Positions 24,384-64,000 of a stretch of DNA of 64,000 nt are shown here, piece by piece. Position numbers and translations under genes: made by a program. The DNA lies in NCBI GenBank assembly GCA_024402435.1, contig JAKSTU010000005.1:1-64000 (forward strand), given 5' to 3'. Source of the DNA: Treponemataceae bacterium. GTDB lineage: Bacteria; Spirochaetota; Spirochaetia; Treponematales; Treponemataceae. How positions within the stretch are numbered: position 1 is the stretch's first letter; each line of letters begins with the position of its first letter. Under the pieces are notes generated by a model. The model was given only the letters and a program-made list of their open reading frames with translations, did not search any database and was not told the origin of the DNA.

Positions 24384-24574
24384 TAGGAGACATGATAAAA
24401 ATTACGTTCATGGCTTGCCGTTAACGCGGGGGTTTTGTTTAAGTTTAATAGGAGGCGTGATAAAAATTACGTCCATGTAATTTTTATCACTTCAGTTTGT
24501 TCGCGCGTTGCGCTCTCAAACTGATTATTCTCGCCTTCCATGGCTCGCCGCTAACGCGGAGTTTTTATAGGAGA
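24384..24574 (+). repeat. SD-linked structured repeat, one truncated and one full copy
   Basis: The truncated copy (about 24384-24446) starts with TATAGGAGACATGATAAAAATTACG and lacks the middle hairpins. The full copy (about 24447-24568) has hairpin 1 with perfect arms TGATAAAAATTAC (24458-24470) and GTAATTTTTATCA (24477-24489), hairpin 2 with arms CAGTTTG (24493-24499) and CAAACTG (24517-24523), and a final CCGC-TAAC-GCGG stem. It ends in TATAGGAG, which is the Shine-Dalgarno of the lipoprotein gene at 24579. Two more copies lie at 63687-63930. Confidence 0.88.
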
Positions 24575-24578
24575 TAAT

Positions 24579-25310
24579 ATGAATAGAAACAAAGCTTTTG
24601 TTCTGTTTTGCCTGATTTTTTGCGGTGCAATGTTTTTTTCATCTTGCGGACCCAATACTAATTACATAAAGCGGGTTCAGTCTCTGGAAGAAAATGTTTC
24701 CAGCCCTACAACAATTGACGAACTGAAAGATGCGATCAAAAAATATCAGGATCGTGTAGAAGATATTATTGCTGCGGAATCTCAGACTGGAATCTGGTAC
24801 AAAATCCTTGCAACCCGTTACATTGACAACAAAATGTACGCAGAAGCTCTTAATGCTCTGCAGCGTGCAATCACATATTATCCGACAAATCAGAACTTGT
24901 ATTACTATGTGGGCGTCTGTGCAGGTTACATGGCCAATTCCGCACTGGATTTTGATGTGGACGGCTATAATCCTGAGCGGATCAATTATCTCAAACTGTC
25001 AGAATCCGGGTATCTCCGTGCTTTGGAACTTGAAAGCACTTATGCACGTGCTTTGTATGGTTTGAGCGTTCTTTACGTTTATGAGCTTGACAGAAGTTAT
25101 GATGCAATTCCTCTTCTTGAAAAACTTTTGACAATTGATACAAAAGATGTGGACGCAATGTTCCTGCTTGGTCATGCATATTATCTGAACTACGAATTCC
25201 AGCTGGCCGCAGACATGTATGAGCGTGTTGCAAAGACTACCACATCCGACAAAACCCGGCAGGAAGCAGAAGCAGACAAGAAAATTGCTTTGGACGCTCT
25301 TTACGGATAA
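24579..25310 (+). CDS. TPR-repeat lipoprotein
   Basis: A 243-residue lipoprotein. The signal peptide ends with the lipobox FFSSC, lipidated Cys23, so it should be membrane-anchored facing the periplasm. Three to four tetratricopeptide-like repeats follow (for example WYKILATRYIDNKMYAEALN, ALYGLSVLYVYELDRSYDAI, AMFLLGHAYYLNYEFQLAAD), suggesting a scaffolding or assembly role. The Shine-Dalgarno TAGGAG comes from the end of the structured repeat. It sits between xer and dprA but need not be functionally linked to them. Substrate or partner unknown. Confidence 0.8.
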   Translation: MNRNKAFVLFCLIFCGAMFFSSCGPNTNYIKRVQSLEENVSSPTTIDELKDAIKKYQDRVEDIIAAESQTGIWYKILATRYIDNKMYAEALNALQRAITYYPTNQNLYYYVGVCAGYMANSALDFDVDGYNPERINYLKLSESGYLRALELESTYARALYGLSVLYVYELDRSYDAIPLLEKLLTIDTKDVDAMFLLGHAYYLNYEFQLAADMYERVAKTTTSDKTRQEAEADKKIALDALYG

Positions 25311-63686: not shown

Positions 63687-63930
63687 TAATAGGAGGCATG
63701 ATAAAAATTACGTCCGTGAAATTTTTATCATTCAAGTTTGTTGCTGCGTTGCATCCACAAACTTGGATTCTCGCCATCCGTGGCTCGCCGCTAACGCGGG
63801 GTTTTAATAGGAGGCATGATAAAAATTACGTCCGTGTAATTTTTTTCATTCAAGTTTGTTGCTGCGTTGCATCCACAAATTTGGATTCTCGCCATCCGTG
63901 GCTCGCCGCTAACGCGGGGTTTTAATAGGA
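63687..63930 (+). repeat. SD-linked structured repeat, two 118-bp copies in tandem
   Basis: Units begin with TTAATAGGAGGCATGATAAAAATTACG; their ATG triplets are at 63698 and 63816 (118-bp period). Each has hairpin 1 (TGATAAAAATTAC and its near-complement), hairpin 2 with arms CAAGTTTGT / ACAAACTTG (63733-63741 and 63757-63765; second copy ACAAATTTG keeps pairing through G-U) and the CCGC-TAAC-GCGG stem. The array ends in TTTTAATAGGAG, the Shine-Dalgarno of the gene at 63938. Homologous to the copies at 24384-24574. Confidence 0.9.
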
Positions 63931-63937
63931 GTTTGTT

Positions 63938-64000
63938 ATGAAATCATTTGTAAAAGGTCTGCTTTCTGTTGCCGGAGTAGCGGCTGTTGCATTTCTGCTT
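63938..64000 (+). CDS. Exported protein, 5' part only (cut by the window end)
   Basis: Only 21 codons are visible, MKSFVKGLLSVAGVAAVAFLL, a typical signal peptide start. The Shine-Dalgarno AGGAG at 63927-63931 is the end of the second 118-bp repeat. Nothing more can be said about function. Confidence 0.7.
   Translation, partial: MKSFVKGLLSVAGVAAVAFLL

Follow-up and report, generated by a model that had tools for sequence, protein, structure and literature searches.

The repeat under study lies on contig 76 of a draft genome of 2.62 Mb (G000), within a window of 64,000 nucleotides, the whole stretch of DNA that was analyzed. A decayed and a full-length unit adjoin each other directly upstream of a gene for a lipoprotein-like protein, and the window holds a tandem pair of further full-length copies. 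The full-length unit is called element A below. The features are as follows.

24384..24448, plus strand: decayed older copy, consisting of TAGGAG and the start of hairpin 1, then the end of hairpin 2b, hairpin 3 (CCGTTAACGCGG) and a T-rich tail
24449..24573, plus strand: full-length copy (element A), from TAGGAG to TAGGAG, identified by direct reading, blastn and the covariance model (144.7 bits)
24457..24490, plus strand: hairpin 1 (H1), a 14-bp perfect palindrome GTGATAAAAATTAC-GTCCAT-GTAATTTTTATCAC with the loop NTCCNT (ANGGAN on the minus strand)
24493..24523, plus strand: hairpin 2 (H2), CAGTTTG..CAAACTG with the inner part GCGC-GTT-GCGC
24530..24547, plus strand: hairpin 2b (H2b), CTCGCC-TTCCAT-GGCTCG, with the loop NTCCNT as in hairpin 1
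24548..24559, plus strand: hairpin 3 (H3), CCGC-TAAC-GCGG, followed by a T-run at 24562-24566
24568..24573, plus strand: TAGGAG, 3' boundary of element A and Shine-Dalgarno (SD) sequence of the gene that follows, separated by 5 nt from the ATG at 24579
24579..25310, plus strand: downstream gene, a lipoprotein-like TPR protein of 243 aa
63690..63813, plus strand: full-length copy of a second subfamily (stem 2 CAAGTTTGT/ACAAACTTG), first of the tandem pair
63808..63931, plus strand: full-length copy, second of the tandem pair, TAGGAG at 63808-63813 being common to both units

The unit at 63808-63931 has its own GGAG (63928-63931), with an ATG 6 nt further on at 63938. Full copies of element A measure about 106-126 bp, are made up of four hairpins, end at the 3' side in a T-run and TAGGAG, and carry GGAG at the 5' end as well. 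A sequence-only reading had described three stems in this repeat. All the details it named are present, namely the stem 2 arms CAGTTTG/CAAACTG replaced by CAAGTTTGT/ACAAACTTG in the 63690 copy, a pairing-preserving change in the second tandem copy (the 63808 copy reads ACAAATTTG, with a G:T pair), and stem 3 with its CCGTTAACGCGG counterpart in the decayed copy; in reality, however, there are four hairpins, H2b and the 5' GGAG having been overlooked. Elsewhere H2b reads CAGCGC-ATCCGT-GCGCTG (other genomes). The fold of the window copy has an MFE z-score of -5.2. In the decayed copy an internal deletion joins the loop region of H1 to that of H2b. Two decayed copies at other loci (L027, L028) have GCGCGRACAAACYG as hairpin 2, the reverse complement of the usual 5' arm, as though template switching inside the palindrome had copied the arm. 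At L047, an ABC-permease-like reading frame from upstream enters element A and finds its stop codon within hairpin 1.

Searching G000 by blastn with the 191-bp query returned 43 matching pieces at about 30 places (best E 7e-96), and nearly all of the approximately 30 copies read with their flanks run into TAGGAG-like sequence and then a start codon. The repeat was also found, by exact 30-mer search, in named Treponema MAGs (RUI232 and another) with about 30 pieces each. A covariance model built from 33 copies (R1) matched 143 of 245 sampled Treponemataceae genomes, which represent 12 of the 20 genera; up to 14 matches per genome were scored. In a phylum-wide sample, 39 of 393 genomes had R1 matches, all but two of them within Treponemataceae. 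Weak R1 matches in G399 (L208-L211, phylum level) were rejected as element A; they belong to a different, abundant palindromic repeat of about 150 bp (CAGGCTGCTGAAAAAGTCCATCCGTGGACTTTTTCAGC..) with an ATCCGT loop, which is not located at starts. A third variant, seen at L158-L160, L162-L165 and L221 (G108, G105, G092, G123), keeps hairpin 1 and the same SD boundary, and differs in the sequences of H2, H2b and H3 (GCAGTTGCGTTCTAAAGCC.., GGCTGCCGCCGNGGCTT). Outside Treponemataceae, G555 from another family of the class (L204-L207), one of the two exceptions in the phylum-wide sample, contains three-hairpin repeats with TCC loops; each of the four copies inspected has an SD and a possible start at or close to its end.

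Placement was scored for 101 copies. An ORF starts no more than 20 nt from the 3' end in 87 of them, 85 times with ATG and most often at a distance of 5-7 nt. The remaining 14 are mostly followed by another repeat; where this is element B, the start comes after B. Element B (about 155 bp) is a second structured repeat at SD sites (L118, L124, L131, L105, L108, L188, L190, L191), which occurs alone or, often, directly after A, and ends in GGGAG before a start. In a stricter test, which required an ATG 3-10 nt downstream and an ORF of at least 60 aa, 78 of the 101 copies of element A were positive, compared with 89 of 1592 (5.6%) other GGAG sites (binomial p 2e-76). Within G000, 26 of 27 copies precede an ORF of at least 60 aa that starts within 25 nt, and when the best copy from each of 28 genomes was taken, 25 lie before an ORF. 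A few copies are not at a start (L112, L121, L029), which counts against the rule. Overall the copies lie non-randomly relative to genes, and the random placement that would have spoken against the sequence-only reading is not seen.

Such placement could in principle arise if insertion were random and purifying selection then removed all copies except those at harmless, SD-replacing positions; an insertion between SD and start would be tolerable, as a new SD is supplied. Copies antisense to genes or in convergent intergenic regions should be equally harmless, yet are hardly seen. Full copies moreover have GGAG at their 5' ends: of 83 such copies, 77 carry GGAG-like sequence at either end, and the bases that precede the 5' one are host-variable. 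Random insertion is considered very improbable.

A cis-regulatory 5'-leader RNA has to be weighed more carefully. Hairpins and T-run beside the SD would adjust translation, termination or the stability of the RNA, and it is for regulation that many genes would have acquired a copy. The strict sense orientation and the SD boundary agree with this, as does the computed accessibility of the SD, which is somewhat higher than with a shuffled element body (0.40 vs 0.25). A moderate excess of secreted and lipoprotein genes downstream of copies in G000 (15/26 vs about 21/91, by a rough heuristic) points the same way. The downstream genes are, however, unrelated to each other within and between genomes; pgk, hsp20, a NUDIX hydrolase and a flagellar-like protein are among them (names assigned by sequence), and no common theme was seen across genomes.

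Two alignments were used to examine the pairing. In the first (A1; 33 copies, MAFFT, not fitted to structure) 96.6% of cells are paired, and 17 of 33 pairs are changed on both sides, compared with 2-5 in slid controls. In the second (A2; 101 copies, fitted to the covariance model) 97.3% of cells are paired, and 28 of 33 pairs are changed on both sides, compared with 9-14 in slid controls; two-sided changes occupy 329 cells and one-sided changes 34. Part of the changes occurs within one genome. Substitutions therefore keep pairing rather than break it, and the earlier description of a covarying structured repeat with the SD as its unit boundary is borne out by the covariation together with the placement at ORF starts.

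Covariation of this strength is also in favor of a leader RNA, and the sequence-only reading had taken it as support for structure at the RNA level. That step does not hold, since the wobble exceptions show no preference for the mRNA strand: G:T (wobble on the mRNA strand) was counted 22 times and A:C (wobble on the opposite strand) 26 times, about equal. Selection on an RNA from one strand would be expected to favor one of the two, so the counts speak against RNA but do not tell it apart from a DNA palindrome; a palindrome kept as DNA fits no worse than an RNA fold. As cells stand for sequences and not events, the counts are an indication of a DNA palindrome and not proof of it.

The loops of H1 and H2b are alike, with T-C-C-x-T in 81-83 of 83 rows and both N positions free. 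Read on the minus strand, each is an ANGGAN hexaloop placed directly on a C-G-closed stem, and the two occur as a pair. A hexaloop of this type on a stem is the high-affinity consensus of Csr/Rsm proteins (PMC4005645). The loop might serve CsrA as a genuine binding site, on an antisense RNA, or it might be where a DNA-binding protein makes base-specific contact at both hairpins. In the first case the opposite strand would be the functional one, as an antisense or small RNA with two ANGGAN loops that bind or sequester CsrA. This is suggested by the two hexaloops with exactly two free N, and by TD-2 (RF03162, Rfam clan CL00124, typed sRNA), which is the best Rfam match of many copies on the minus strand, at 30-40 bits and below its gathering score of 48.7. 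The related-looking TwoAYGGAY motif (RF01731), predicted to bind CsrA (PMC4333381), also matches the minus strand of the window repeat, partially and with 24.0 bits (gathering score 43). Several observations do not fit. The counts given above show no clear preference of wobble pairs for the minus strand, no promoter-like site was found on either strand, and the RNA would be antisense to every downstream gene. The SD boundary is left unexplained. Boundary and loops moreover dissociate: element B stands at SDs without obvious ANGGAN loops, and the TD-2 copies of the g15/g20 genomes have such loops and do not stand at SDs. A function of the minus-strand RNA is regarded as quite unlikely.

Copies from one genome are more alike than copies from different genomes. 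Their mean identity is 0.93 in G056 and 0.84 in G000, compared with 0.77 for copies of different genomes; the excess is clear in five of seven multi-copy genomes, G001 (0.70) being an exception. Element A is usually missing at the orthologues examined: among 12 pgk loci compared at the gene level it was found only in that of G056. Arrays are frequent, either as near-identical tandems or as a truncated, older copy followed by a full one, with the full copy adjoining the gene. Many copies are 5'-truncated and keep the 3' end with hairpin and SD, and some also have internal deletions. Absence from most orthologues and the free decay of the 5' parts, internal deletions included, count against the leader RNA, although the retention of the 3'-end hairpin and SD in truncated copies agrees with it. 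On balance a leader RNA is unlikely. A LINE-like 5' truncation at birth was considered and rejected; truncated copies also have internal deletions and keep the gene-proximal end, for which decay with a preserved SD is the simpler explanation. Half copies might have pointed to an autonomous element of greater length; those inspected turned out to be decayed or diverged whole copies beside starts.

A search for empty sites of element A gave none that was base-exact; the regions tried in the genome pair G074/G144 are absent from G144. Other loci of A and B tried in these two genomes had no counterpart in the partner genome. One syntenic pair was found for element B, filled in G144 and empty in G074, with an intergenic junction that has diverged and is not base-exact. 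Only GGAG is common to the two element ends, where a 4-bp duplication and a GGAG borne by the element look alike.

A mobilizing enzyme was sought among known types; no transposase or recombinase was found linked to the element, which counts against mobility. The Y1 transposase (PF01797) is absent from G000, from the copy-rich genomes G082, G105 and G092, and from others, and the element model had no match in the Y1 loci L168-L171. An enzyme of the IS200/IS605 or RAYT type was rejected as mobilizer, as the occurrence of the Y1 gene does not track the element; a Y1 enzyme may have been lost or missed in carrier genomes. A RAYT-like Y1 transposase is encoded in G001 (L175, 1465-2208), flanked by GGGGACGGTTCTC repeats and a CCAGGGCCATCCATGGCCCTGG hairpin; an ATCCAT-loop hairpin lies close by, yet the surroundings of the gene showed no element ends. 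Reverse transcription as the mover was rejected, no PF00078 (reverse transcriptase) being present in G000, G056 and G082.

Element A is probably a short, non-autonomous mobile DNA palindrome (MITE/REP-like) of the Treponemataceae, which inserts at the GGAG of Shine-Dalgarno sequences and replaces what it displaces. The unit would be a series of consecutive palindromes with GGAG at each edge. It would take the GGAG of an SD as target, in sense orientation, leaving the old GGAG at its 5' end and offering a new TAGGAG from its 3' end at the correct distance from the start codon, so that the gene would still be translated from the new site; the hairpins may in addition regulate expression. Because the 3' end presents a new TAGGAG, the insertion would be tolerated and the site could be targeted again, producing tandem and nested arrays. 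Movement is thought to be DNA-based, via single-stranded or extruded hairpins, with one protein binding the two hairpins that share the NTCCNT loop; the invariant loop in H1 and H2b would suit one dimeric protein that binds both ends. In favor of mobility are the structure and its covariation, the dispersal, the SD boundary and strict placement, the arrays, and the absence at most orthologues examined. Sites of this kind are also occupied by two relatives of distinct sequence, among them element B, which can follow A at one SD. Against mobility it can be said that selection on a functional leader would also give 5'-truncated copies with a kept 3' end.

The sequence-only reading had considered the family undescribed. 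The window repeat has no match in Rfam at the gathering thresholds, but relatives are already deposited there in clan CL00124, as TD-1 (RF03155) and TD-2 (RF03162). Against TD-2 the minus strand of the window copy scores 27.1 bits and the best element A copies 40.3, 37.3 and 35.3 bits, all below the gathering score. One copy of the G399 repeat comes near that threshold (46.7 bits), and the weak R1 matches in the g15/g20 genomes are true TD-2, with up to 96.6 bits. No match of element A to TD-1 was reported, even without hairpin 1; element B reaches 46.3-61.4 bits against TD-1, just below the gathering score of 64.5. Since the scores stay below the gathering thresholds, element A is placed outside both families, as a divergent relative of the clan. 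The literature searched, which did not include the presumed original description of TD-1 and TD-2, contained no account of such a repeat at SDs in Treponema.

The likeness to the two families is considerable. TD-2 has the same order of three hairpins as the minus strand of element A, and its outer two hairpins have ANGGAN-type loops, as found on that strand. Element A differs by the addition of hairpin 3, the T-run and the SD, and its TD-2-like strand is antisense to the gene start; the TD-2 copies seen in g15/g20 are, unlike element A, not at a start. TD-1 is typed Cis-reg, which favors the leader RNA, and its plus-strand consensus ends in a T-run and UAGGA (..uuuuuaUaggA) like the 3' end of element A. 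Element A, too, lies upstream of a gene and ends at UAGGA. A wider reading, tentative and perhaps somewhat short of an even chance, is that spirochetes contain a class of site-specific DNA palindromes that target and rebuild the SD and are moved by an enzyme recognizing two NTCCNT hairpins, with TD-1 and TD-2 as members and not as RNA regulators. If this is true, a repeat family can enter the ribosome-binding site, the part where a gene is most sensitive to insertion, by bringing a replacement. TD-1 and TD-2 would have to be read differently, and the 5'-UTR annotation of many gut Treponema genomes would be affected. Whether covarying "RNA" motifs of repeat families are DNA palindromes would become testable, and a mover that recognizes GGAG would represent a new kind of target choice.

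Among mobile repeats, element A resembles the bacterial MITE-like repeats BOX, RUP, Correia and bcr1, which are likewise short, structured, non-coding and dispersed in many copies; no link of these to Shine-Dalgarno sequences is known. It also resembles REP/BIME sequences with RAYT and PATE-like derivatives of IS200/IS605, all of them imperfect palindromes that occur dispersed and have invariant bases in the loop or foot. Insertion of IS200/IS605 elements takes place beside a short fixed target and causes no duplication, and the elements have hairpins near both ends. Element A differs from REP/BIME and IS200/IS605 in that it has no linked Y1 gene and no recognized guide sequence. Its hairpin 1 begins only 2-3 nt after GGAG, unlike in IS200/IS605-type elements, and it stands in a single orientation at SDs, whereas BIMEs lie in convergent intergenic regions.
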